Below are positions 3,793-25,416 of a stretch of 25,416 nucleotides of DNA, one piece after another. The stretch is from a virus. The stretch spans positions 1 through 25,416 of IMG/VR virus record IMGVR_UViG_3300035162_003904; one strand, 5' to 3'. Each line of letters starts with the position of its first letter. Within the stretch, counting starts at the first letter, position 1. The notes below the pieces were generated by a model. It made no database searches. It saw only the letters and a program-made list of their open reading frames with translations, and had not been told where the DNA came from. The translations under genes were made by a program, and so were the position numbers.

Positions 3793-5337
3793 ATGGGTAA
3801 GCAAACTGTCAATATAGGATCAACTGCCAATGACGGCACGGGTGATCCTATACGAACGGCTATGGTCAGGATCAATGGTAACTTCACCGAGGTATATAAT
3901 GCTTTAGGTGGAAATACTGTTACTGGTTTAGTCAACGCTCAGAATGAAATAGAATTGCTCTCAACGGCAAACAAAATTTCCTTTCTCTATAGTCTTGAAT
4001 CTGAGGTGCTCGCGCTAGATCCTGCTACTCATCATGGGTCTATTGCTCATGCTCACGACACCGGTGCATTGTATTATGCTCATGGAGAATGGCGCAAGTT
4101 ATTATCTGATACCTCTGCCGGCGCTATTACTAGTTACACAGATCCATTACAGCCTTTCTCCTATACTGCCAATATAACAAATCTCCAAGTAGACGGATAT
4201 GTCTTATCGACAAATGCAAATGGAACTTATACTTGGGTTTCTAATGCAGGCGGAGGTGGTGGTAGTGTAGCATCGCTTGAAGATCTCGATAATGTTACAA
4301 TTAGTAATCCCTCAAATGATCAAGTGCTTAAATTCAATGGTAGTGCTTGGGTCAATGGAACAGATGCTAGTGGTTCTGGTGCACTTACTATATCAGATGA
4401 AGGTAGCTCATTAACCACTAGTTCGGCTTCAATTAATTTTGTTGGTTCTGGTGTTACTGCAACGACATCCGGTGATGATGTCACTGTTACAATTTCTGGC
4501 GGCGGTGGTGGGACTTTTGCTGACCTCACAGAAGTAAATGCCGCTACTTTAGATGTTGATGATATTGCTCTTCAGGCCACGACAAACCTTGTGGTCACTG
4601 GTCCTGATTCGACAAAATATTTATTCGATCAATACCCAGGCAACAACCCGACAATATATGCGACAAGAGGATCGACGATTGCTTTCAATCTCGATGGTGT
4701 CACTGGATCACACCCATTTCGTATCTTAACTATTGGTGGTGGTTCACAGTATGACACTGGACTTGTCCACTTCGCACAGGATGGAACAAAAACAACCGGT
4801 TCGGCCGCTCAAGATAAGACCTCTGGCACATTGTATTGGAAGATTCCAGGCAATGCTACTGCTGGTACTTATGAATATGTCTGTACTGTCCATGCTGCCA
4901 TGAACGGCAATATTGTAGTTCAAGATCCTGCTGCTGGCGGGGGTGGGGGTGCTTTACAGGCTCGAGGTTCTCTCAATGGAGCTACTAGTGGTTCACATGC
5001 TGATAATACTGATGAAGATCTTAACATAACCGGTTATAAAGGTTATTCACTTCTTAAAATTCAAACTGACAGAGCAGCATGGGTAAGAATGTACATTACA
5101 GATGCGGCAAGAACAGCTGATGCTGCACGTGTTGAAACAACAGACCCAAGTCCAACTGCAGGTGTTATCGCAGAAGTAATTACTACCGGTGCAGAAACTG
5201 TTAACTTTACGCCAGGAGTGCTTGGTTGGAACGGTGATGGAACACCTGCTACTACAATGTATCTTGCAGTGAAAAACAAATCAGGCGGTACTAGTGCCGT
5301 TGATGTGACAATCACCGCAATCCAACTCGAGGCATAA
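3793..5337 (+). CDS. Multidomain virion protein with cupredoxin (type 1 copper) domain
   Basis: A 514-residue probable virion protein made of four blocks separated by five-glycine linkers at residues 153-157, 236-240 and 382-386. Block 1 opens with a V-N-I-G-x-T-A-N-D-G-T-G-D-P-I-R motif followed by N-G-N-F-T-E-V-Y-N-A-L, which I recognise from marine T4-like phage structural proteins. Block 2 has a fibre-like L-x-D-L-D-N-V motif with a V-L-K-F-N-G-S-A-W segment. Block 3 (about 241-381) is cupredoxin-like: His307 in S-H-P-F, then Cys364-x-x-His367-x-x-Met370 before an N-G-N-I-V-V strand. This is a full set of type 1 copper ligands, with the spacing known from amicyanin. Block 4 ends in a beta-rich domain common at the ends of marine phage virion proteins. 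A GGGGA ribosome site precedes ATG. The next gene (protease) begins 1 nt after the stop, so the two are probably co-translated. Copper binding and a baseplate or fibre location are inferred. Confidence 0.78.
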   Translation: MGKQTVNIGSTANDGTGDPIRTAMVRINGNFTEVYNALGGNTVTGLVNAQNEIELLSTANKISFLYSLESEVLALDPATHHGSIAHAHDTGALYYAHGEWRKLLSDTSAGAITSYTDPLQPFSYTANITNLQVDGYVLSTNANGTYTWVSNAGGGGGSVASLEDLDNVTISNPSNDQVLKFNGSAWVNGTDASGSGALTISDEGSSLTTSSASINFVGSGVTATTSGDDVTVTISGGGGGTFADLTEVNAATLDVDDIALQATTNLVVTGPDSTKYLFDQYPGNNPTIYATRGSTIAFNLDGVTGSHPFRILTIGGGSQYDTGLVHFAQDGTKTTGSAAQDKTSGTLYWKIPGNATAGTYEYVCTVHAAMNGNIVVQDPAAGGGGGALQARGSLNGATSGSHADNTDEDLNITGYKGYSLLKIQTDRAAWVRMYITDAARTADAARVETTDPSPTAGVIAEVITTGAETVNFTPGVLGWNGDGTPATTMYLAVKNKSGGTSAVDVTITAIQLEA

Positions 5338-5338
5338 G

Positions 5339-7066
5339 ATGGCTCTTCAAGAATATATTGTTACGCTACACAATCGAGAAGATCTCGATGCTTTCTATGA
5401 TGATATGGAAACGCCAGGTGGCGATCTTTATATTCCAGATCGATCAATTGGACTTCAACTGAGAAGGTCGATCAGTCGTAACACTCATTATATGCTCTAT
5501 GATGAGGAAGTAGCAGATCTCCGAGAAGATGAAAGAGTTCGAGGTGTCGTTTTAGCATCAGATATTGCAGCGTTGACTCAGCAGGATAATGGTTGGTCAG
5601 GCGCCGGAGATTACGAACGGTCCAGTACGATCGCTACGAACGATTTGCAATGGGGTATATACAGACACATAGTTAGAGATAATCCATTGGCTGGTGAATG
5701 GGGTCGTGATGGCACGACAACCGCGACCGCAGATTTTACAGTCACTTCCTCTGGTAAAAATGTAGATGTTTTAGTCTTTGATGGTTTTTGCGAAAAAGAC
5801 CACCCCGAACTCGCGGTAAACCCAGATGGAACGGGTGGCAGTCGAGTCAATCAATTCAATTGGTTTTCCCTCACAAATCAATTGGGATTTGGTACTAACG
5901 GAACATATGATTATAGCCATAGGGTCGGCGACGAAAGTGGCAGTAATCACGGCACCAGTGTAGGATCTGTGATGGCTGGAAATAGACTCGGGTGGGCAAG
6001 AGATGCTAACATCTTCAATCTTCGATCATACACTGGGCTGGCGCCAAATTACAATGCAGATGGTGGGTTTAGATTAACTCACGCTAATTCATGGGATTAT
6101 ATTAGGGAATGGCATGCCACAAAAGCAGTTAATGCCGAAACAGGGAGAAGAAATCCTTTAGTGGTGAACTGTAGTTTTGGGCCTCGCGCGCTCAAAGCTG
6201 ATTACGTCGGTTCCGGTCTCGACATTGAGGCCATGTCTTATAGAAACAGCGGTACTCCTAACTTCAATCCTGGCAGAGTTTTAACTAACAATGAACTTAC
6301 TGCACGAGGTGTAGCAGTATATGCGACAACCGGCAATTGGTATGTCCAAATGAATATGGATGAAAGTGAGACCGATTCAGAGTACGTTGCGTTTCAATCA
6401 GATGTCGAAGACGCACAGGCAGATGGCATCATCGTGGTCTGCTCGACTGGCAATGAGTTTATGCTTATGGTAAAGCCCGAAAATGTAGACCATGATAATA
6501 TTGCATTTATTGGCCAAAGTGGTTCTCTTGTTGGTGGTATATATAGCAATCAGCCGGGCCCGAGCGCCAACGGTCAAGTAGTTCCAGAAACTATCTCCGT
6601 AGGTAATATGTCGTTTGAGAAAAATGACAGAAAAAGATTAGATAGTAATTCTGGTGATCGCATTGATATTTTTGCGGCTGGGACTGGAGTTCAAGCTGCT
6701 GTCAGAACCGGCGGCCCCGCCACAGATCCGCGTAATGGAAGTTTTCAAATCAACCTAACATATGGCACTAGCTTTTCTGCACCTAATGTTGCGGGAGTCA
6801 TCGCTCTTCTCTTAGAAAGCAATCCTAATATTACTCAAACAGAAGTTAAACAATGGCTAATAGACAACGCGTCTACTGACAAAATGTTCGATAGTGGTAC
6901 TGTAGATATGTCTGATTACCTGAGTATTCATGGCGCACCAAATCGAATACTATATTGGAAAAATCAAAGACCAGAAGCAGGAACGACATTTCCAAAAGTT
7001 AATGCAAAAACTAGACCAACATCTGGTCGTACATACCCTCGGCCGAGAATCAGAGCGAAAGGCTAG
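5339..7066 (+). CDS. Subtilisin-family (S8) serine protease with I9-like N-terminal domain
   Basis: A 575-residue subtilase with the full catalytic set: Asp148 in V-F-D-G-F, His204 in S-N-H-G-T-S-V-G, Ser478 in Y-G-T-S-F-S-A-P-N-V-A-G, and a likely oxyanion Asn372 in C-S-T-G-N-E. Residues 1 to about 80 resemble an inhibitor-I9 prodomain (E-Y-I-V-T-L at the front, then H-Y-M-L, E-E-V-A-D-L-R-E-D-E-R-V-R-G-V), which in cellular subtilases folds the enzyme and blocks it until cleaved. The 274-residue His-Ser distance is longer than in subtilisin, implying inserts. There is no signal peptide or membrane segment, so export is not by Sec; virion association is more likely. The C-terminal ~15 residues are basic and proline-rich. 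The start is 1 nt after the upstream stop, suggesting translational coupling to the cupredoxin-domain protein. Substrate unknown: virion protein maturation or host surface proteins are both possible. Confidence 0.9.
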   Translation: MALQEYIVTLHNREDLDAFYDDMETPGGDLYIPDRSIGLQLRRSISRNTHYMLYDEEVADLREDERVRGVVLASDIAALTQQDNGWSGAGDYERSSTIATNDLQWGIYRHIVRDNPLAGEWGRDGTTTATADFTVTSSGKNVDVLVFDGFCEKDHPELAVNPDGTGGSRVNQFNWFSLTNQLGFGTNGTYDYSHRVGDESGSNHGTSVGSVMAGNRLGWARDANIFNLRSYTGLAPNYNADGGFRLTHANSWDYIREWHATKAVNAETGRRNPLVVNCSFGPRALKADYVGSGLDIEAMSYRNSGTPNFNPGRVLTNNELTARGVAVYATTGNWYVQMNMDESETDSEYVAFQSDVEDAQADGIIVVCSTGNEFMLMVKPENVDHDNIAFIGQSGSLVGGIYSNQPGPSANGQVVPETISVGNMSFEKNDRKRLDSNSGDRIDIFAAGTGVQAAVRTGGPATDPRNGSFQINLTYGTSFSAPNVAGVIALLLESNPNITQTEVKQWLIDNASTDKMFDSGTVDMSDYLSIHGAPNRILYWKNQRPEAGTTFPKVNAKTRPTSGRTYPRPRIRAKG

Positions 7067-14189: not shown

Positions 14190-14377
14190 TGCGCCGAGAT
14201 CAAACTGGTAAAGCTATTATTAACACCGACATTGAAGCTTTAAATAAATATAAACAAGAAAGAACATATTATAGAAAAGTGGATTCACTTTACTTAGATG
14301 TTTTGGAAATAAAAAAGAGTATACTTTCCATTAGTGAACGCATATCAAGATTAGAATCGGATAATAAAAATGGCTAG
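14186..14377 (+). CDS. Small conserved hypothetical, helical/coiled-coil protein
   Basis: A 63-residue, charged protein overlapping the preceding gene by 4 nt (ATGA) and the following tail-fibre gene by 8 nt, a layout that implies translational coupling to both. An alternative start is the second ATG at 14189. The N-terminus R-R-D-Q-T-G-K-A-I-I-N-T-D with L-N-K-Y-K resembles a small protein I recall from cyanophage structural regions. The C-terminal half, V-L-E-I-K-K-S-I then I-S-E-R-I-S-R-L-E, has heptad-like spacing of Leu/Ile and may form a coiled coil. There is no membrane segment. The function is unknown; a small virion linker or an assembly helper for the flanking structural proteins is a guess. 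Confidence 0.75.
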   Translation: MMRRDQTGKAIINTDIEALNKYKQERTYYRKVDSLYLDVLEIKKSILSISERISRLESDNKNG

Positions 14378-15788
14378 AAACGTATCAAGCATAAACACTT
14401 CTCAGACTTTTCAAGATTGGCTGACCAAGACTAATGATTTAGCAGCACTTTTTGCTCAGACTGTTACCGCATCTGCTGGAGGAGACACTACTACCGGCAG
14501 CGCTACCTTGACTGGAGCTTTTACTGCTGGAGGCGACCTTACTGCTGCCGGTTCAGTTAAAGCAGACACAATAGAATCTAACGCTGCAGGTGCAATCAGC
14601 ATAACTGATGCTATAACAGTTAACTCGGGATCTGCAACTACTGCTACATTCACTTTTGCTGGCGATGGTGGCCAGACACGATATACCAACGGCACATTGT
14701 CTTGGGATGTGGGGATGGAAAATGGCAGTGAGTTTGTTTTAAATACTGGTGGTGGAACTCCAGAATTTAAACTCACCCCAGCAGGTGCCTTGGAAACGGT
14801 CAATGTGGCTGTTACTGAAGCGGTTAGTGCGGAGAGTATGTCTGCCAATACTGCCACATTCAATACAGCAACTATCACAACGATCACTGGTCTCGACACA
14901 GACGCAGTAGGTGAAGGGTCTACAAATCTATATTACACTAATGCTAGAGTCGGTGCTCAGATTGTTGCTGGTGCTGGTATCGATAAAACAACAGTTCAAA
15001 CCGATAAGGTAAGTATTGCGGTTGACTACACTGAAGTCGCTTCAGGCATCGGTCTGGCTAATTACTTGCCCCTTGCTGGTGGTGCATTAACAGGTACTCT
15101 AGGCACGGAAGTGATAACGATTGCTAACGAAGTTGCTACTGCAGGATTTGACCCTGCTGGCTTAGGGTTTAAGTTTGATACGTTTATTGAAGGATCTGGC
15201 CAGTTTTCAGAAAGTAAGTTAGAAATAACCGGTCACCGTGGCCCTTCTGGCAACATAGGCGCTGCAGTGTGGACAAAGTGTCTAGATGTCGGCATTAACA
15301 GTATGAAGTATTACGGGTTGAGCTTCAGAAATGTGGGAACGAATTACGTCGAAGGCAATTCTTTTGTCGGAACGGACGGTAGTGCTAAATATCTAAGAGT
15401 ATACGGAGACATTCAAGCTTATAATGGATCTGATCCGACCGTTTTGATAGATGGATCTGCCGGAACAATTGTAGCAGAAGGTGACATTACAGCATATGGT
15501 AGTGCGTCAGATATTAGACTAAAAGAAAATATTCAAATTATTCCAGATGCTTTAAACAAAGTATCTCGTCTTAATGGTTATACTTTTAATTATAAAGACA
15601 AACCGACCGAGCCAATGACAGGTATTATTGCTCAAGAGATCGAGTCTGTACTGCCCGGCGTAGTCTATAACGTCGATGATGAAGATAAAGGATCATATAA
15701 AGCCGTCCGGTATGGCAACGTAGTGGGGCTCTTGATTGAGGCAATCAAAGAATTGCAAGAAAAAGTAAATGAATTAGAGAATAGATAA
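14370..15788 (+). CDS. Tail fibre with C-terminal S74 intramolecular chaperone domain
   Basis: A 472-residue fibre protein. The N-terminal section has an F-Q-D-W-L-T-K-T-N-D-L-A motif, followed by Ala/Thr/Gly-rich beta repeats typical of trimeric fibres, and a T-N-L-Y-Y-T-N-A-R-V motif (about residues 186-195) widespread in phage fibres. The last ~93 residues form a peptidase_S74 chaperone: Ser380-Asp381 followed by I-R-L-K (Lys385) and E-N-I, then G-Y-T-F-N-Y, G-I-I-A-Q-E-I-E and a final helix L-L-I-E-A-I-K-E-L-Q-E-K. In characterised members this domain trimerises the fibre and then cuts itself off just before Ser-Asp using a Ser/Lys pair; both residues are present. It probably forms a host-contact fibre, possibly with the giant protein downstream. 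The ribosome site is weak (GGATAAT), so translation may depend on coupling to the upstream small gene. Confidence 0.88.
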   Translation: MARNVSSINTSQTFQDWLTKTNDLAALFAQTVTASAGGDTTTGSATLTGAFTAGGDLTAAGSVKADTIESNAAGAISITDAITVNSGSATTATFTFAGDGGQTRYTNGTLSWDVGMENGSEFVLNTGGGTPEFKLTPAGALETVNVAVTEAVSAESMSANTATFNTATITTITGLDTDAVGEGSTNLYYTNARVGAQIVAGAGIDKTTVQTDKVSIAVDYTEVASGIGLANYLPLAGGALTGTLGTEVITIANEVATAGFDPAGLGFKFDTFIEGSGQFSESKLEITGHRGPSGNIGAAVWTKCLDVGINSMKYYGLSFRNVGTNYVEGNSFVGTDGSAKYLRVYGDIQAYNGSDPTVLIDGSAGTIVAEGDITAYGSASDIRLKENIQIIPDALNKVSRLNGYTFNYKDKPTEPMTGIIAQEIESVLPGVVYNVDDEDKGSYKAVRYGNVVGLLIEAIKELQEKVNELENR

Positions 15789-15810: not shown

Positions 15811-15818
15811 TATAAATA
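15811..15818 (+). promoter_or_regulatory. T4-type late promoter box, perfect TATAAATA
   Basis: A perfect match to the T4 late-promoter -10 octamer in the 53-nt gap before the giant gene, 23 nt upstream of its start codon. It is the best promoter in the window and suggests that the giant gene has its own late transcript. Confidence 0.7.
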
Positions 15819-15841: not shown

Positions 15842-18800
15842 ATGGCTAAGATTTCAGAGTTAGGTCCAATTACAGGGGCGAATACCCGCCCAGAAGACCT
15901 CTTCGTCATAGTTAATCTCGTCCAAGGTGATGACGGTACAAAGAACATAAGCCGAAAGGAACTTGTTCAGGCAATCCAGTACGAAATTTTTGATCGAATC
16001 ACAATCACTGGTGGATCTATATCCGGTGTGACGATGTTCGACTCCCTTATCCGTAATGTAGTCATCGATGACTCGGATATGGAAGACAGCGTAATTATTC
16101 GAACTGAATTTTCTGATGGCATTCTTCGGGATTCATTTGCCGCGCGCCTAGACATACAAGATTCTACTTTCAATAACGGTGAACTTACTAATTCCACCGG
16201 CGCTAACTTAACAATTACGGATTCCACCTTTACAGATGGTGGGATTTTTGATAGCACTGGCAACAATCTTATCATCACAAATTCAGAATTCAATGATGGT
16301 ACTGCTAATAATGTCGTTATAACTGATTCATTCATCTATGAGTCTTTATTCTCTAATGGAGATGTCCAAGATTCTAACGCAAACAATATCGTTATCACTG
16401 ACTCCACGTTCACTGATGGTGGGATTTTCGACTCCACTGCAAACAATGTCACAATTACTGATTCTACTTTCACCGATGGTGGGATTTTCGATTCGACTGC
16501 TAACAATGTAACGATAACAGATTCTACCTTTACGGATGGTGGGATTTTCGATTCGACTGCCAATAACGTCACAATTACTGATTCTACCTTTACGGATGGT
16601 GGGATTTTTGACTCCACGGCCAACAATGTAACAATAACTGACTCGACATTCACAGACGGTGGGATATTTGATTCCACTGCAAACAATGTTACTATCACAA
16701 ATTCTACTTTTACTGATGGAGAAATTTTCGACTCTACCGGTAATAACATGGTCATCACAAACTCTGAGTTTAATGATGGCACTGGCAATAACAATATATT
16801 CGATTCCTCTCAGTTCAATAACGGTACTGCTAATAATGTCGTTATAACTGATTCGCAGTTTAATGATGGCGACATAGATAATAGTATATTTGTCAACGGC
16901 AATCTGAATGATTCTGATGCTGACAACCTTACTATTGTCAATTCAGATTTTTCTAACGGGACTGGTGCTAATAATCTATTCACTGATACTACACTCGATG
17001 ATAGCTTAGTTCAAGATTCGGAAATTGTCAGGACTGACTTCAGAGACGGCACAATCTCTAACACGATTATCTCAGATTCTACCATCTTTGATACGGATGC
17101 TACTAACCTGACAATGGTTCAATCTGCCTTTGCAAATGGCTCTATTGATGATTCGACATTAACCGGGTCACGAGTCATCGAAGGTGAATTAGAAAACTTC
17201 GAAATGGATTTGGATGAAGTCTTTGATCCAAACATCGATGAAGAGTCTTGGTTCGCATTAAAGAATAATAAAACTGGTAAAACGGAACGAATCACATACG
17301 CACAATTCTATGATGAATTGGGCAAGACTGTTAAACAGGCTCTAAAAATCCACGTTGATGTAAGTCAAGGACGAGATGAGTGGCCTGGATCTATGCTGCA
17401 ACCTGTCAAAACTCTTGAAAGAGCATGTGAACTTGCTCTTGTGAAAGCAGGCGGGCTCTACGACAGAAATGATGTCAACAACGCTGTACACATCTCTGTA
17501 GGCCCTGGCACATATTACACCAAGGGAAACCTTAAACTCCCAGATGACTGCTCTGCAACATCAACAGCCGGACAGTATGCGACCGTCGTTGAAGCATTGC
17601 CTGGATACGAAAACAATAACTGTTGGTTAGTCGGCTCTGGTGGATATCTGCAGGGGTTCTCATACACTAACTGGAAGGTCGATAACTTTGACTTCCCAGA
17701 AGGTGGATTTGCCGTTGCTTATCGACCAGGTGCAAAACTAAGACGATCACCTTATTTGAGGGACTCATCTCAGCTATCTAACTTCTTACGTGCTGATGTA
17801 GAACCACCTCTCAACCCCTTCAATTCTAAGGGAACTATTGCTGACCTTGGCCGTGAAATATTCTTACAGCCCACATACACCGGTAACTGGAATGAAGGTG
17901 ATTCGGTCAAATTCTCAAGCGGTGCTAGAGGATATATTTCTTGGGATCAAGATTTAGTCTCGAATCGAATTTATGTCCGAAACTTAAAAAATGGTGTCGG
18001 GTTTGCTGTTGGTGACACTGTCACTTGTGAATCAGGCGGTATCGGTATAGTAAGTGAAATTGGTATCGATGACTTCCCCAACCCACTCGTTGGTCGAGGC
18101 GGTGGTTGTGTACTTGCGGATCGACGTGTACTTGATCCAGATTCATTATACACATATGTACTCTGTTTTGGTTTCACGCCTAGAACACAGAATGGTATAG
18201 GATATGTTGCACGAGATGGTGCGGGTATTAACGGTATTGGTTCATTGTCAATCTTCACACGTTGTGCATTCTATGCATTGAATGGTGGTCAGGTCACATT
18301 GAACAACTCTGGTTCGCAGTTTGGTGATATCTCGATGAGAGCAAAAGGATTATCAAGATTCTTTCAACCAAGAGACACCACATTTACCACGTTCCAAAAT
18401 ACTGCATTTGCCGATACGTTGACAGATCAAAAAGATGTCATAATTGATGCTATGATTGAACATCTCGAAACTCCGATTCTTGACGGTGGTTTGGGTTATG
18501 AAACATACGATTCACAAAAATGTGAGCGAGACAGCGGCATCATCTTAGACGGCATAGGCCTTGATGTTGTAATGGATTCAAACTATTGGGGTCGATTGGC
18601 TGGTATTACTTATCGCTCACCAATCTCATATACAGTGATTGGAGATCAGCTAGAAGAAACTGCCGGCGCAGTCCGATACCTACAAGATCGTGTTGAATCA
18701 TTATTTGATCAACAAGATGCAGCAATCAATACTAGAGCAAATACATCATTCGAATCTACGTTAAACATATTAGAGAATGGCGAAGAATATGCTTCTGCCG

Positions 18801-21800
18801 TAACTTTTGCAGACACTGGTGTTGAGTCACATAAGACTGCACGTGAATTATTACAAGACAATAAAGCTCTTATCAGTGAAGTCTTTGTTGATTGGATTGA
18901 TAACAACGATGAATTCTTTGCATATGACAGTATCAAGTGTCGACGTGATACCGAAGAATATATTTTACCTGCTGTTAAATTCGATGCCATGTTGGATACA
19001 AACTATAACAGTATCACAGCTGGTAATGCCTATTATATGGCTACTGCCAATAAGGTTATCGAGAAGCAGAGTGAAGAAACAATCGGTGCATACAAGCAGT
19101 TAAAAGATATCACCAATGAGCTCGTCGATTCTATCAGCTATCTTGGTTCCGATAGAGTCGGGAAAGGCTTTGACAACATTCTAGGAATTTTAGAAAGAAC
19201 AGGACAACAATTCACTGCTACCTTTGCCACATATAATCCAGCAACTGGTGAGTTTGTTATCACTATCGAAGATCACGGTCTGCCCGTTGGAACTAGTGTT
19301 CTATTGGAACAAGACAGTTTTGTATTCAAGTGTTCTGCTGACAATTATGTTGCTGAAAAGACTCATCCTAACACTAATGATCCTTTCTATAACAAGCCTA
19401 TCGAGATAGATTCGGTAACTCAAAACACGATCACAATGAATGTTGGTATTTCAACTTCAATCGATGATCACATTTACATGAGATCCTCTACAAATTCTGT
19501 TTCTGTTGTTCCTTCTATGATCACATTCAGTGACGATGCTGGTATCTCTGCTGATCGTAGAAATGCTAGAAAGCAACTACAGACCAATAAAGATTATATC
19601 CAAGATCATATTGTCGGTTGGATCAATGATAACTACTATGTCTATGACGAAATCAAATGTGCGAGAGACACGAATGACTACATTCTTCCTGCGATCGAAC
19701 GAGATCTTGCTTTAGGAACAAATTACAATTCAGTCTTTGCTGGTGTGTCATATTACACTGGTATTGCTAGTAAAGTAATCAGTGATCAATTAGAACCTAC
19801 TGTCGGAGCATGGGGTTACGTTAAGAATCAGGTTGCTGCTTCTATCTCTGGCAACCTCGGTGCAATCTATAGAACAGATGCAGCTGCCGATGAAATAATT
19901 GATATTATCACTAATGGAACTGCCGCGGCAGACAACATTGTATGGAGTGATCCTGCTTCTCATCTTGCTTACTTTACACCAACAACTGCCGGATACAATC
20001 CAGGCAATGGTCAAAGTACAGTAACCGCTGAAGGCCATGGTCTGACGACAGATGATTGGGTCATGTTTGCTCCTTATTCTTTCGTGTTCACTTGTGACTT
20101 AGATTCCAATGCTACACAACATGCGTATCCTCGGGTCGGTGATGCCAACTTCAACACACCGATGCAGATCACAGCAGTAACCACAGACACATTTACTGTG
20201 AATGTCGGGACTGGTACTGGTGGTATACACACATTCATATCTGCACAAGATAATGCTGTTATCCATACAAGTCAAAATTCTCAAGGCTACCATGCCAGAA
20301 TTAACTTGCAGGCAAACAAATCATTCTTGCAACAAGATGTTCTGTCTTTCCTCAATGCTAATTACTTTACATTCGATGGAGCAGCTTGCTCACGTGACAC
20401 TGGTTTCATCCTAGACGCAGTCAAGCGTGATATCGCGACCGGATCAAATTATCATTCACGATACACTGGGTTGGCTTATCGATCTGGTGCTATTGGTGCT
20501 GATATTGTCATCTCGGAACAATTGACCGAGACTGTATCAGCTATCAATTATCTCAAGACTGAGGTTGCTTCTGGTCTATCAGGTGGAGAACTCACTCGAT
20601 CAAATGCAGCCTTTGCTGAGATTATTGATGTGTTGAATAACGGCATTGGAGCTGCAGATCCTATTGACTTCGGAACATCTACTGCTAGTGCAGCTGCAAA
20701 CAATTCAAGGATCATTCTACAAGCTAATAGAGCCTTCATCATTGCAGAAGCCCAAGCATACCTTGCGGTTAATTTCCCAAATCATGTCTATGATGTTGCA
20801 GCTTGTGAACGAGACACCGGTTTCCTTGTCGACGCAGCATCATGGGATATGCAACACGGTTCTAACATTGCTTCCGGTGAAAATGCTAGTTTTTACTTCG
20901 AGAATGCCGTCACTCAATTAGCGGCCAATGAGAAACTCCCGACTGCTACAACATTCGAACATCTTGCAGAAGTTGCATTTCAGATCATTAGAAACAAAAC
21001 AGTTATTGTCACGACTGGCAACGTCGAAACTCAGGTACAGTCACAACCCGATCTCGGTCTTCCGAATGCTTCTAAAGCTCGTAATCTAATGAACATCACC
21101 GCTGATGCTATCCGAGATGATCGAAGATTATTGGTTCCAGAATACGTTGAGCCTGTCGTAGAGTCTGGTTATAGTGATGCCTTGATATGGATCAACGGCC
21201 AAAGAACTCGACTCCAAGACGATGTTATAGATGAACACTTGATACCAACATTTAACGGTTTACCATACAGTGCAACTAAATGTGCACGAGATGTTGGGTT
21301 TATTCTAGATGCTGTTTCAAAGGATATCGAATACGGCGGAAATGCATCCACACTAGAAACAGTTCGGTTCTACTTCTATGGAGCTTTAGGTGTTGCTCTA
21401 GATGATGGGACACCAGTTATAGAACAATTAAATACATTACCAGAGGCGCAAAGAGAGCCTACTAAACTTGCTTTCCAACATCTTGCTGATGTTTCTGAAC
21501 AAGTTATCAAGAATGTAACTATCACACCTCAGTCTGGTAACATTGTATCTCAGAATACGTCTGGCACTCCAGTCAACAACGCCACAGGAGATGCTGTACA
21601 TGATCTGATAGATATTATAGGTGTTCAATTAGATGTCTATAAGAACCCTGTACTGCCTACTCAGGTCTCACCTGTTGCAGATCCAAACCAGACCGTGGCT
21701 CGTCAAAATCTACAATTGAACAAGTCATTTGTCCAACAAGAAGTGATTAGTTATCTCGACGACAAATACTTCACATACAATTCAACTAAGTGTTCAGGTG

Positions 21801-24800
21801 ATACCGGCACATTGATGGATGCAGTAAAACGTGATGTGTTGACTGGATCGAATTTCAATTCAATATTCAACGGTCTTGCATATCGTGTTGGAACTACTAG
21901 TGCTCAACTTGTTGTGTCAGATCAATTAAATGAGACAGTCGCTGCTATCAATTACGTGAAGCAACAGACTGCTTTGAAGGTAACAGACACTTCTGCTAAG
22001 ACTAGAGTAGAATCTGGCTTCAATGAAATCATCGACATCATGACAAATGGTGCTGGTTCTGCTGATGTGTATAACTGGGGTGATGGTGCATTGAATGCTA
22101 ATCGTCTTCTAGGTCGTCAGAAGATCCAAGAAAACAAACCATTCTTGGCCGCAGAGATTACCTCCTATCTTGATTCTAACTTTTACACTTATGATGACGC
22201 CAAGTGTGAACGTGATGTGGGTCATGTAATAGATGCAGCTGCTCTTGACTTAGTATTAGGAACAAATTATAATTCAGTCTTTGCTGGTCGGGCATATCGA
22301 TCACCAATTGCTGCAAGTTCGATTACAGACGAACAGCCACAAACACTTGCGGCCTTCAGAAATCTTAAAGAAGAAATTGCTACAGTAATTACTGACGCTC
22401 CTTCTCTTGCACGAATTGATGCTTCTATCGACGAGATTAATGATATCCTCGAAAATGACACACCAGATGCTATCGTGTGGACTGACCCCGGTCTTGTCAC
22501 TGAAAGATTATATGCAAGACAGAATCTCCAGCTTAATAGAGACTTCATCATTGCTGAAATCACGGCCTTCATTGATACTGAACTGCCAGAATATGATGTT
22601 GCATTATGCCAGAGAGACATTGGTTATATCCTAGATGCAGTACGAAGAGATTTAATTCTCGGCACAGATCATAGCACGATCACTTCTGGAGATGCATATC
22701 TTCGAACTGGATCTTATTACACTCTGAGTCAACAATCAGAATATACGATTGCTGGTATAGAATTTGCTAGAGACTATGTGAAAGGACTTGTCAGTACACC
22801 AGATGCACAGATCGATGTATTATTCCAAAGAGTGATTGATGTCCTCAATGGAACTGTGACTGCTTACATTGCACCAACTTATCCGAATCATGGTGGTTCA
22901 TACGATAACGCAGATCGAACCGCTGCTAAAAATGCTCTGCAAGCTCAACGTGCGGTCATGCAAGCAAGTGTGACTCGATACATTGCAAATCAATATCCGA
23001 CTTCGGTTTACGATGTTGCAGATTGCGAGAGAGATACCGGTTATATCATCGATGCCGTAACCCACGATATTCTATATGGTGGTAATACTGCCTCTCAGAG
23101 AGCAGCGGATGCATACTTCATTGGGACTGTTTCTCAATTAGGCCCTGAAGAGGCAATTCCTACTGCTTCTGCATTCGGTTATCTCAGATCTTTAATGAAC
23201 ACTTTTGTAACTACTGCCACTGAACAAGCCAGAGTCATCAGTCTTGTCGGGATTGTTATTGATGTAATTGAAGCAGGATCCGTTGCTGGTTTACCTGCAG
23301 AGGTTGAGCCAGATCTCGCCGGCCTTACTACTACTGACCACGACTTAATTCAGACTAATACGGCCGTTATCAAAGGATTGACTACTGACCACATTACTCA
23401 GAACTATCCTGTATATGATGTTGCTAAGTGTGAAAGAGACGTTGGATTTATTGTAGATGGAGCATCTCACGATGTTCAATACGGTGGTAATAGAGCTACT
23501 GTTACTTCTGCTCTATTCTATTTCCTAGATGGTGTGAACACATTGCCGATATTGCAGCAGAGAAACACTAGAGCGGCATACGAACATCTAGGTTCAGTAA
23601 TGTCAAATGTTGCTCAAGAAGTCACTGTCACTCCTTCAACTGGAAACCTTGAAACACAGGTCACACCAGGCAATCCTGCCAGCGCAACAGAAGGAACCGC
23701 AATAACTGCTTTAGGAACAATCATCTCAGAAGCGGTCAGTTCAGCCGACACTTCGGGCATCCCTGCAAGAGTAGAACCAGATATTACTTGGGTTGCTACT
23801 AATTTCACTGATGCTAGGACGGCGCTGATTGGTGCAACTTCTGCACTTAAAACTGCTACGACACTCTTCTTGAACAACGACTATCATAATGAGCTTTGTG
23901 AAAGAGATTTGGGTTACATCATCGATGCAGTACGTCGAGATTTATTAACTGGTTCTGTTCATCATACAGTCACTGCTGCTAATGCTTACCTTCGAAACGC
24001 ATCTGCTTATGTTACAGGTGGTACGGCAGAATCTACTGTCAAGGTTATCGCATACGCCAGAGATTCTATTGTTGCACTTGCTAATATTACTTCTGATCCC
24101 GCTGTAACTGCTCTATTCCAAACTGTAATTGATGTATTGGAAGGAACAACGACAACATTTGGAACTTCAACTTATCCAACTACTGCGGGAACATATCAGA
24201 CTGCGGCAAGAATTGCTGCCACTCAGGCAATTCAGTCAAATATGGCCACCATACTTGCTGATACATCTGCTTATATCCAAGTCACTTATCCAAACATCTA
24301 CTATGATAATGTTAAGTGTGAAAGAGATGTTGGTTACATCATCGACGCAGTTCGCAGAGATCTTGTCCTTGGCACCAACCACAACACGGTCACGTCTGCA
24401 AATGCATACCTCAGGCCAACAAGTGGTTATCCTTCAAATGGACAGAATACTGCTACTACGGCCGCAGTTGAATTTGCAAGAAACAAATTAACAAGGTTGC
24501 CTGCAGTAGAGAGTATCGGTGAAATCAACGGCTTGTTTGATCGAGTCCTCGATGTCTTAAATGGTTCGGTCACAACTCTTGCCGAATCATTCTTCCCAAC
24601 AACGGAAGGTTCGACATATCAAGTTGCACTGGACAGAGAATTGGGTGCTGCTAGACTCCAAGCTAATAAACTTCAATTTCAAACTGAACTTACTGCTTGG
24701 ATTGCTTCTCAAGTATCAGGCAACATTGCTCCATTTACTACTGGCTTCGTCTATGATGGTGCTAAGTGTGAAAGAGATGTCGGCTTCATTGTAGATGCTA

Positions 24801-25416
24801 TGACACACGATATCAAATATGGTGGGAACAGCTCAACATTGCAATCTGCGATCGCTTATGTGATGAATGCTGTTCTTCTCACAGAACAGGCAGAAACTGC
24901 AGCTGCATTCGAACAACTTAAATCAATCATTGCGGCATATACCACTGGATTGGATACTAATATTATTAATAGTGTAATCTCTTTATTAGATATCGTTATT
25001 AATGTTATCAATGCAGGAAATATTTCAGGAATCCCTGCTGAAGTGGATATCGATACGACTGGTCTTGATGTTACTGAATTCGATCAGATTACTGGAAGTA
25101 GGGCATCCATTATATCAGATACAGTTGCATATGTCAACACTAATTATCCGACTTATAATGTTGCTGATTGTGAAAGAGACACAGAGTTTGTCCTTGATGC
25201 CGTTTCATTCGATATGAAGTACGGTGGTAATAGTGCAACTCGAATCGCCGCTATTGCTTATTTCGACAAATCAACATCACAACTTGCTGACGCAAACGAG
25301 ACCACTGCCGCAATTGGTGCTTACATTGAATTGAAAGATTTGGTGACAGCACAAATCAATGGTGCGATCGGAACTACTGCTGCCGAAGAAACAAGAGCAC
25401 AAGACCTGATCGATAT
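15842..25416 (+). CDS. Giant modular fibre-like virion protein (at least 3191 residues, 3' end beyond window)
   Basis: The frame has a stop at 15824-15826, starts at ATG 15842 behind an AAAAGG site, and shows no stop to the window end, so the protein is incomplete. Domains, by residue: 1-50, fibre-type N-terminus (I-S-E-L-G-P-I-T-G, then R-P-E-D-L-F-V-I-V-N); about 60-455, 20-residue beta-helix-like repeats rich in N-N-V-T-I-T-D-S-T-F; about 470-880, a pectin-lyase-like region with Q-G-R-D-E-W-P-G-S and P-V-K-T-L-E-R-A near 506-525 and an inserted beta segment; from about 880 onward, at least 15 helical modules each carrying C-x-R-D-x-G/E. No signal peptide or membrane segment was seen. The position downstream of an S74 fibre, the N-terminus and the beta-helices suggest an adsorption fibre or a very long tail-surface protein. 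The N-terminal and pectin-lyase-like parts recall large hypothetical proteins of marine T4-like phages; the molecular role is not known to me. Confidence 0.88.
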   Translation, partial: MAKISELGPITGANTRPEDLFVIVNLVQGDDGTKNISRKELVQAIQYEIFDRITITGGSISGVTMFDSLIRNVVIDDSDMEDSVIIRTEFSDGILRDSFAARLDIQDSTFNNGELTNSTGANLTITDSTFTDGGIFDSTGNNLIITNSEFNDGTANNVVITDSFIYESLFSNGDVQDSNANNIVITDSTFTDGGIFDSTANNVTITDSTFTDGGIFDSTANNVTITDSTFTDGGIFDSTANNVTITDSTFTDGGIFDSTANNVTITDSTFTDGGIFDSTANNVTITNSTFTDGEIFDSTGNNMVITNSEFNDGTGNNNIFDSSQFNNGTANNVVITDSQFNDGDIDNSIFVNGNLNDSDADNLTIVNSDFSNGTGANNLFTDTTLDDSLVQDSEIVRTDFRDGTISNTIISDSTIFDTDATNLTMVQSAFANGSIDDSTLTGSRVIEGELENFEMDLDEVFDPNIDEESWFALKNNKTGKTERITYAQFYDELGKTVKQALKIHVDVSQGRDEWPGSMLQPVKTLERACELALVKAGGLYDRNDVNNAVHISVGPGTYYTKGNLKLPDDCSATSTAGQYATVVEALPGYENNNCWLVGSGGYLQGFSYTNWKVDNFDFPEGGFAVAYRPGAKLRRSPYLRDSSQLSNFLRADVEPPLNPFNSKGTIADLGREIFLQPTYTGNWNEGDSVKFSSGARGYISWDQDLVSNRIYVRNLKNGVGFAVGDTVTCESGGIGIVSEIGIDDFPNPLVGRGGGCVLADRRVLDPDSLYTYVLCFGFTPRTQNGIGYVARDGAGINGIGSLSIFTRCAFYALNGGQVTLNNSGSQFGDISMRAKGLSRFFQPRDTTFTTFQNTAFADTLTDQKDVIIDAMIEHLETPILDGGLGYETYDSQKCERDSGIILDGIGLDVVMDSNYWGRLAGITYRSPISYTVIGDQLEETAGAVRYLQDRVESLFDQQDAAINTRANTSFESTLNILENGEEYASAVTFADTGVESHKTARELLQDNKALISEVFVDWIDNNDEFFAYDSIKCRRDTEEYILPAVKFDAMLDTNYNSITAGNAYYMATANKVIEKQSEETIGAYKQLKDITNELVDSISYLGSDRVGKGFDNILGILERTGQQFTATFATYNPATGEFVITIEDHGLPVGTSVLLEQDSFVFKCSADNYVAEKTHPNTNDPFYNKPIEIDSVTQNTITMNVGISTSIDDHIYMRSSTNSVSVVPSMITFSDDAGISADRRNARKQLQTNKDYIQDHIVGWINDNYYVYDEIKCARDTNDYILPAIERDLALGTNYNSVFAGVSYYTGIASKVISDQLEPTVGAWGYVKNQVAASISGNLGAIYRTDAAADEIIDIITNGTAAADNIVWSDPASHLAYFTPTTAGYNPGNGQSTVTAEGHGLTTDDWVMFAPYSFVFTCDLDSNATQHAYPRVGDANFNTPMQITAVTTDTFTVNVGTGTGGIHTFISAQDNAVIHTSQNSQGYHARINLQANKSFLQQDVLSFLNANYFTFDGAACSRDTGFILDAVKRDIATGSNYHSRYTGLAYRSGAIGADIVISEQLTETVSAINYLKTEVASGLSGGELTRSNAAFAEIIDVLNNGIGAADPIDFGTSTASAAANNSRIILQANRAFIIAEAQAYLAVNFPNHVYDVAACERDTGFLVDAASWDMQHGSNIASGENASFYFENAVTQLAANEKLPTATTFEHLAEVAFQIIRNKTVIVTTGNVETQVQSQPDLGLPNASKARNLMNITADAIRDDRRLLVPEYVEPVVESGYSDALIWINGQRTRLQDDVIDEHLIPTFNGLPYSATKCARDVGFILDAVSKDIEYGGNASTLETVRFYFYGALGVALDDGTPVIEQLNTLPEAQREPTKLAFQHLADVSEQVIKNVTITPQSGNIVSQNTSGTPVNNATGDAVHDLIDIIGVQLDVYKNPVLPTQVSPVADPNQTVARQNLQLNKSFVQQEVISYLDDKYFTYNSTKCSGDTGTLMDAVKRDVLTGSNFNSIFNGLAYRVGTTSAQLVVSDQLNETVAAINYVKQQTALKVTDTSAKTRVESGFNEIIDIMTNGAGSADVYNWGDGALNANRLLGRQKIQENKPFLAAEITSYLDSNFYTYDDAKCERDVGHVIDAAALDLVLGTNYNSVFAGRAYRSPIAASSITDEQPQTLAAFRNLKEEIATVITDAPSLARIDASIDEINDILENDTPDAIVWTDPGLVTERLYARQNLQLNRDFIIAEITAFIDTELPEYDVALCQRDIGYILDAVRRDLILGTDHSTITSGDAYLRTGSYYTLSQQSEYTIAGIEFARDYVKGLVSTPDAQIDVLFQRVIDVLNGTVTAYIAPTYPNHGGSYDNADRTAAKNALQAQRAVMQASVTRYIANQYPTSVYDVADCERDTGYIIDAVTHDILYGGNTASQRAADAYFIGTVSQLGPEEAIPTASAFGYLRSLMNTFVTTATEQARVISLVGIVIDVIEAGSVAGLPAEVEPDLAGLTTTDHDLIQTNTAVIKGLTTDHITQNYPVYDVAKCERDVGFIVDGASHDVQYGGNRATVTSALFYFLDGVNTLPILQQRNTRAAYEHLGSVMSNVAQEVTVTPSTGNLETQVTPGNPASATEGTAITALGTIISEAVSSADTSGIPARVEPDITWVATNFTDARTALIGATSALKTATTLFLNNDYHNELCERDLGYIIDAVRRDLLTGSVHHTVTAANAYLRNASAYVTGGTAESTVKVIAYARDSIVALANITSDPAVTALFQTVIDVLEGTTTTFGTSTYPTTAGTYQTAARIAATQAIQSNMATILADTSAYIQVTYPNIYYDNVKCERDVGYIIDAVRRDLVLGTNHNTVTSANAYLRPTSGYPSNGQNTATTAAVEFARNKLTRLPAVESIGEINGLFDRVLDVLNGSVTTLAESFFPTTEGSTYQVALDRELGAARLQANKLQFQTELTAWIASQVSGNIAPFTTGFVYDGAKCERDVGFIVDAMTHDIKYGGNSSTLQSAIAYVMNAVLLTEQAETAAAFEQLKSIIAAYTTGLDTNIINSVISLLDIVINVINAGNISGIPAEVDIDTTGLDVTEFDQITGSRASIISDTVAYVNTNYPTYNVADCERDTEFVLDAVSFDMKYGGNSATRIAAIAYFDKSTSQLADANETTAAIGAYIELKDLVTAQINGAIGTTAAEETRAQDLID
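16298..16329 (+). repeat. 32-nt exact direct repeat, copy 1
   Basis: Begins GGTACTGCTAATAATG and ends ATAACTGATTC; identical, in the same reading frame, to 16823-16854. It stands out because neighbouring repeat units have diverged at most third codon positions. Confidence 0.9.
16382..16741 (+). repeat. Six 60-bp tandem repeats encoding 20-residue coils
   Basis: Six consecutive 60-nt units (starting 16382, 16442, 16502, 16562, 16622 and 16682) encode near-identical 20-residue units, N-N-V-T-I-T-D-S-T-F then T-D-G-G-I-F-D-S-T-A. Four units are identical in protein, while the DNA differs mostly at third codon positions. More diverged units extend on both sides, from about 16202 to 17200. A 20-residue period with alternating small/polar and hydrophobic residues suits one turn of a parallel beta-helix; this is inference from the pattern. 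Confidence 0.93.
16823..16854 (+). repeat. 32-nt exact direct repeat, copy 2
   Basis: Identical to 16298-16329 and 525 nt (175 codons) downstream, both in frame. It encodes the G-T-A-N-N-V-V-I-T-D-S turn of the beta-helix-like region. Confidence 0.9.
19211..19500 (+). repeat. Inserted beta-rich domain, copy 1 (within giant protein)
   Basis: Residues about 1124-1220 interrupt the helical module series between copies 2 and 3. The segment has Y-N-P, D-H-G-L, F-V-F-K-C, P-N-T-N-D-P-F-Y-N-K-P, V-T-x-N-T-I-T-M-N-V-G and D-D-H-I-Y, and aligns along its length with the second insert. It resembles beta domains I recall from other marine phage virion proteins. Confidence 0.75.
19970..20260 (+). repeat. 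Inserted beta-rich domain, copy 2 (within giant protein)
   Basis: Residues about 1377-1473, between module copies 3 and 4. It shares with copy 1 the ordered marks Y-N-P, G-H-G-L, F-V-F-T-C, a Pro/Asp/Asn-rich loop, I-T-A-V-T, T-F-T-V-N-V-G and a late His. It is the more typical of the two. Confidence 0.75.

Follow-up and report, generated by a model that had tools for sequence, protein, structure and literature searches.

Phycobiliproteins (PF00502; phycocyanin, allophycocyanin, phycoerythrin and the related smURFP) possess a B-E loop that contributes to the pocket for the bilin. A single phycobiliprotein-like domain is also found, together with linker repeats, in ApcE, the giant modular core-membrane linker that forms part of the cell's phycobilisome. 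T4-like cyanophages, for their part, encode giant proteins in a T4 tail gene context, belonging to PHROG families 4527, 5342 and 701 and exemplified by S-WAM2 gp224 (4,759 aa) and S-PM2 p088 and p218. More than 300 cyanophage records include related giants, whose annotations read short tail fibre, tail fibre or baseplate wedge. One such protein, SSM1_102 of S-SM1 (T4-GC969), has been detected by mass spectrometry in purified virions (PMC3037559), in a study that also calls the phycobilin genes of phages a mystery. A role of these giants as tail or virion proteins is already known. What appears to be new is the identification of their repeat as a phycobiliprotein-like domain, which is found in no searchable paper; none of the literature surveyed connects virion proteins of phages with PF00502 or with domains of the phycobilisome, although this survey covered open-access texts only and is weak evidence for novelty.

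The window, i.e., the whole 25,416-bp stretch of DNA analysed (a fragment from IMG/VR), contains a frame that an ORF scan finds open from the ATG at 15842 to the window edge (25414), with 3,191 codons and no stop. The earlier note had described a single open frame of at least 3191 codons, the largest gene in the window, and both points hold, with the second-longest ORF coding for 1,819 aa. The stop is invisible because the virus record itself ends at 25416. Full-length relatives are seen on other contigs, namely, G001, with an open frame of 4,182 codons and 69% identity to the window protein over 3,182 aligned residues, and G002 and G030, with 4,142 codons each; thus, about a quarter of the protein is missing from the window.

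The architecture of the protein is laid out in Table 1. A search with its first 153 aa recovered 173 viral relatives. The segment from aa 480 to 844 is the slowest-evolving part of the protein, with a weak PHROG match, and is followed, in aa 845 to 3191, by 15 copies of a helical domain of about 130 residues. Two paralogous inserts of about 110 aa interrupt this array, one behind unit 2 and one behind unit 3. The statement that the protein consists almost entirely of repeated domains is therefore broadly accurate, with approximately 20-aa repeats at aa ~55 to 450 and the helical units occupying most of aa 845 to 3191. The full-length relatives possess 19 units, i.e., four beyond the window's 15, and then a C-terminal region of about 360 aa, and related viral contigs more generally carry 11 to 19 units within one frame. 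A single 8,548-codon open frame containing such units was observed in the related contig L102 (G023), around 33261 to 36773 on the minus strand.

Table 1. Features of the giant gene and its upstream region (window coordinates)
Feature	Coordinates	Strand	Evidence or remark
T4-type late promoter TATAAATA	15811..15818	+	23 nt before ATG 15842; sole exact copy in window
Giant virion/tail protein, 3,191 codons, open at edge	15842..25414	+	PHROG 4527, 5342, 701, 18802
N-terminal module (MAKISELGPITGAN...), probable attachment end (inferred)	15842..15991	+	Conserved start region
Pentapeptide/20-aa repeats, aa ~55-450, probable beta-solenoid	16004..17191	+	Pentapeptide_4 and DUF3737 above Pfam cut-offs
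Conserved region between solenoid and unit 1, aa 480-844, beta-rich by inspection	17279..18373	+	dN 0.10
Phycobiliprotein-like unit 1 (KCERD)	18374..18778	+	Unit profile 124 bits
Unit 2 (KCRRD)	18803..19195	+	Unit profile 135 bits
Insert domain 1, aa 1119-1229, beta-rich by inspection	19196..19528	+	PHROG 701 E=2.4e-17, 5342 E=2.9e-11
Unit 3 (KCARD)	19529..19915	+	Unit profile 147 bits
Insert domain 2, aa 1359-1472, paralogue of insert 1	19916..20257	+	PHROG 701 E=7e-16
Unit 4 (ACSRD)	20258..20641	+	Unit profile 144 bits
Unit 5 (ACERD)	20675..21052	+	Unit profile 128 bits
Unit 6 (KCARD)	21158..21550	+	Unit profile 100 bits
Unit 7 (KCSGD; sole window unit without Arg)	21680..22048	+	Unit profile 137 bits
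Unit 8 (KCERD), query for single-unit model	22073..22456	+	Unit profile 150 bits; AlphaFold2 pLDDT 87.9, pTM 0.81
Unit 9 (LCQRD), second domain in u8-u9 model	22475..22852	+	Unit profile 141 bits; pLDDT 87.4
Unit 10 (DCERD)	22889..23275	+	Unit profile 143 bits
Unit 11 (KCERD)	23306..23671	+	Unit profile 132 bits
Unit 12 (LCERD)	23771..24145	+	Unit profile 118 bits
Unit 13 (KCERD)	24185..24565	+	Unit profile 134 bits
Unit 14 (KCERD)	24626..25015	+	Unit profile 114 bits
Unit 15 (DCERD), cut at window edge	25046..25414	+	Unit profile 114 bits

Structure prediction, which the earlier note had suggested for the modules, was run with AlphaFold2 on one unit and one pair of adjacent units and gave confident, all-helical models (pLDDT of 87.9 for unit 8 and 87.4 for the pair of units 8 and 9) with a predicted phycobiliprotein fold. 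In Foldseek searches of the PDB with the single-unit model, all of the top 50 matches are phycobiliproteins (probability 1.00), with the bilin-binding domain of ApcE (TM 0.75, 2.2 to 2.3 Å) and smURFP as the best, although the E-values are modest (~1e-2) and identity in the structural alignments is 10 to 21%. The search with the unit pair agrees. The heme-globin fold was also considered and rejected, since tandem hemoglobin fusions come low in the list for the pair, with an rmsd of 17 Å, and none is among the top 50 for the single unit. In the model, the cysteine opens the third long helix and the conserved asparagine lies at the corner of the first two helices (A-B), the positions of C84 and N47 in the phycobiliproteins.

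Sequence comparisons point to the same family. PF00502 matches 25 of 146 units, against four for the next Pfam family. Relative to its curated cut-off of 22.2 bits, the whole repeat protein scores 26.3, a single unit 16.7 and a unit of G002 23.0; single units such as unit 1 (E=0.007) fall under the cut-off, and stretches of G002, G023 and S-WAM2 exceed it, as does one of 14 control genomes. A profile search of PDB sequences returned seven weak matches, including phycocyanin and allophycocyanin, with CxRD in register, and phmmer with the whole giant protein against the PDB yielded a chance match only. Further, hhalign aligns the units with ten phycobiliproteins over 113 columns (93.5%, E of 2e-7), placing N47, (K83)C84-x-R86-D87 and G102 in register with residues of the unit. 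A full-length B-E loop is lacking, with 24 residues between the asparagine and the cysteine in the unit versus 37 in phycobiliproteins. Taking these findings together, we consider the units very likely to be homologous to phycobiliproteins, from which they differ in their tandem arrangement inside a virion protein, in a B-E loop shorter by about 13 residues, in their own invariant D, N and Y, and in that no bilin genes were detected in relatives of the window phage.

As for the protein as a whole, a profile search of the translation matched tail and virion families (PHROG 4527, 5342, 701 and 18802). For the first three the E-values are 1.6e-99, 2.4e-88 and 4.2e-70 across 10 to 14 stretches, a level at which we accept homology, and the matches include tail-fibre and virion-structural families. 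SSM1_102 of S-SM1 is a distant homologue bearing three units, and BFVD models of proteins from S-CAM1, S-WAM2, S-PM2 and other phages contain the predicted unit fold. Hence, on sequence evidence, the window protein belongs with the giant tail/virion proteins of T4-like marine phages, with which it shares homologous unit arrays, tail gene context, size and predicted fold. It is distinguished from the cyanophage versions by its 15 visible units (19 in relatives) versus up to about 8, by an intact CxRD in nearly every unit, and by the location of its gene directly after a VrlC/S74-fibre block, without a CpeT gene. It resembles the short tail fibre of T4, gp12, in its proximity to baseplate genes, and this name is annotated on the cyanophage homologues; a gp12/collar domain was not found in the window protein, whose C-terminus lies beyond the edge, and the C-terminal part of G001 gave no match to Pfam or PHROG. 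The same baseplate order occurs without any units in pelagiphages HTVC008M and Mosig, Methylophilales phage Melnitz and Sinorhizobium phage phiM12. The 4,971-aa long tail fibre gp85 of S-CREM2, which is found in virions, was tried as a homologue and ruled out, as it has no units.

The genes preceding the giant gene code for gp6, gp7-like and gp9/10-like proteins, a subtilase, gp8, VrlC, a small virion protein and an S74 fibre, i.e., a T4 baseplate/tail neighbourhood. The subtilase-family protease sits within the baseplate gene run at 5339 to 7066 (Pfam S8, E of 1.3e-21; PHROG 9158); an S8 peptidase is reported for P-HM1 and P-HM2, too (PMC3037559). The fibre, which has an S74 intramolecular chaperone (PF13884) at its C-terminus, occupies 14370 to 15788, immediately before the giant gene. 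Downstream of the complete homologue in G001 (L145:13508-20000) are a 141-aa ORF and a long ORF of more than 2,000 codons with collagen-like GxY repeats, and both probably also lie past the edge of the window. The number of late-promoter motifs across the window is not above chance. However, ATAAATA lies 24 to 28 nt upstream of exactly three genes, those starting at 3793, 7107 and 15842, which are the three with an upstream gap of at least 35 nt, and because of this placement before gapped genes we judge the late promoter of the giant gene, claimed in the earlier note, to be real. The proposal that the protein is a deliberate, costly virion component is supported by the PHROG families, the baseplate synteny, the late promoter, the purifying selection described below and the homologue in S-SM1 virions, and a long fibre or tail-surface protein is its predicted role. 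The same note had known of no assigned function for this architecture; this is only partly right because related giants already bear tail fibre and baseplate wedge annotations. The note did not recognise the repeat as a domain of the phycobiliprotein fold, and this identification is the actual news.

Several lines of evidence bear on the host. In the relative G028, TerL and MCP are 59% and 65% identical to those of Sinorhizobium phages (TerL to phiM12, and MCP to phiM12 and its relatives), and the nearest matches of the window's gp6 and VrlC are from relatives of phiM12. The examined pieces of G001 yielded neither TerL nor MCP, and the evidence for a position close to phiM12 therefore comes from G028 and the window's gp6 and VrlC. 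One Rhodobacteraceae metagenome-assembled genome includes three contigs carrying the giant gene. The photosystem gene psbA was found in none of 15 relatives, and CpeT, bilin reductase and heme oxygenase in none of 12 related contigs of up to 156 kb, some of which may be incomplete. Given this binning, the phiM12-like genes and the lack of the four genes just named in the relatives, an alphaproteobacterium of the Rhodobacteraceae is the probable host.

We propose, as the reading that we find reasonably probable, that this tail giant of a T4-like marine phage is a host-contact fibre with rod modules related to phycobiliproteins, most likely free of bilin, in a phage that probably infects Rhodobacteraceae. 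The proposal starts from what is shown here, namely, the frame, the array of units with its conserved motif, the predicted fold, the family and the synteny. Behind a conserved N-terminus and a stalk formed by a beta-solenoid would come about 19 tandem domains, descended from or sharing a common ancestry with phycobiliproteins; these compact helical domains of the globin fold might have been exapted as rod or spacer modules, and the long fibre or tail-surface arm that they form would act as a spacer at the host surface or make contact with it. We infer the rod shape and the contact with the host from the size of the protein, the place of its gene after the baseplate genes, the variable number of units and the missing bilin genes. 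The C-x-R-D, D, N, Y, Q/E and T/S residues would constitute the conserved polar core of each module, and the modules of the window's lineage would most likely be without bilin. The chromophore-free rod is the likeliest form here because psbA, CpeT, bilin reductase and heme oxygenase are all missing from the long relatives, whose host is probably a member of the Rhodobacteraceae.

The conservation of the motif is a difficulty for this proposal. CxRD is present in 442 of 448 units, with exactly one cysteine in 388, and among 152 dereplicated units C, R and D are conserved at 100%, 98% and 100%, with D, N, Y and T at 93 to 99%. The KCxRD signature for bilin attachment is kept at 98% in the window's lineage. 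The lone cysteine and strict CxRD could be due to either a ligand or a buried polar core, and the conservation exceeds what a pure scaffold needs, which counts against a chromophore-free protein. An unlikely alternative, to which these facts lend weight, is that the units are true biliproteins, with a bilin or another tetrapyrrole linked by a thioether to the conserved cysteine and loaded in cyanophages by CpeT; the outcome would be a pigmented virion fibre or a photo-sensing, redox-sensing or stabilizing module. The fuller version, in which the fibre is a genuine phycobiliprotein array with covalent bilins (or another thioether-linked tetrapyrrole) and the cyanophage CpeT matures this fibre rather than the antenna of the host, we regard as rather improbable.

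Part of the argument for such a chromophore comes from the cyanophages. Units are present in 11 of 13 further cyanophages, the exceptions being P-SSM2 and S-SM2, with no units by two profiles. In every cyanophage species with a full-length CpeT gene that was checked (S-PM2, S-WAM2, ACG-2014h/e/j, Syn1, S-RSM4, S-CAM1/3/4, S-RIM32/44, S-H9-1, Sf-CH1a and Sf-FP1), this gene precedes the giant unit gene by 1 to 5 kb in the same orientation, and it is seen just upstream at the loci L094, L095 and L216. In the last of these, from S-PM2 (AJ630128, 160500-178000), the record puts 16 tRNA features within the giant ORF p218; ARAGORN detects no tRNA there but does so at L216:2883-4803, and the tRNA coordinates in the record look misplaced. 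CxRD is kept in 38 of 46 units of phages with a full-length CpeT versus 6 of 21 in those with a short or no CpeT; the comparison is post hoc, units of one genome are not independent, and both the ancestry of the phages and the gene family act as confounders. Several phages of the second group carry their units in 6- to 7-kaa frames of the gp7 region, in which the arginine is often missing and the cysteine and aspartate are retained. We treat the association of CpeT with the unit gene and CxRD as a lead and not as a result.

Set against it are the window-type relatives, which keep CxRD best and yet lack CpeT, bilin reductase and heme oxygenase, and the many cyanophage units that have lost the arginine while retaining the cysteine and aspartate. 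The shortened B-E loop is also at odds with a bilin pocket of the usual kind. P-SSM2, reportedly a maker of phycobilin, has a bilin reductase without any unit, and a link of the units to the bilin synthesis genes of phages was accordingly rejected. Further, T-type lyases reportedly serve Cys-153 and not Cys-84 (PMC10452541). The bilin-free rod thus remains the reading we prefer for the window's lineage, and a bilin-carrying form may exist in those cyanophages in which CpeT adjoins the giant gene.

A second alternative concerns the origin of the domain: the likeness to phycobiliproteins could reflect convergence, with an unrelated helical bundle and a chance CxRD. This is consistent with the low identity and modest E-values of the structural alignments and with D+14, N+20 and Y+30, which are invariant in the phage units and not so in phycobiliproteins. 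Nevertheless, three unbiased searches (Pfam, PDB sequence profile and PDB fold) reached one family, and the helix positions of the cysteine and asparagine are in register with N47 and C84-x-R86-D87, as is G102, leaving convergence quite doubtful. Less plausible still, and in our estimate very improbable, is the idea that the cyanophage units are decoys or adaptors that bind phycobilisome or lyase components of the host during infection and persist as relics in other phages; it would account for the phycobiliprotein likeness and the CpeT neighbourhood, but the best conserved units occur in phages whose probable hosts have no phycobilisomes, and the late promoter and the homologue in virions indicate a component of the particle.

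Lastly, the giant frame is real and under purifying selection. Comparison with G001 gives a dN of 0.25 with saturated dS (~2.4) over the whole length and a dN of 0.27 with a dS of 2.3 in the unit region, from which we conclude that the frame codes for a selected protein. The sole DNA-level repeat in the gene is a 60-bp block at 16379 to 16734 (5.9 tandem copies, corresponding to a 20-aa period), with a copy number that differs from that in the nearest relatives, and this is the only stretch open to assembly collapse; the helical units are 16 to 32% identical to unit 1, so collapse is no worry across the unit region. An assembly or frame artefact, which the earlier note had named as what would refute it and for which these tandem repeats and the interruption of the gene by the contig end might speak, has a negligible chance of being correct, as a like architecture occurs on dozens of other viral contigs and the gene is under purifying selection.

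These results would place the phycobiliprotein fold, known here only from light harvesting, in the virions of marine phages, and its carriers include phages that probably infect bacteria without phycobilisomes. Among the largest unexplained proteins of marine phages, some are filled by this repeat, which thereby gains a name. The question of why cyanophages carry phycobilin genes and a CpeT lyase becomes testable in a new form, namely, whether a virion protein of the phage is the substrate. The units may also serve as new scaffolds for fluorescent or bilin-binding proteins.
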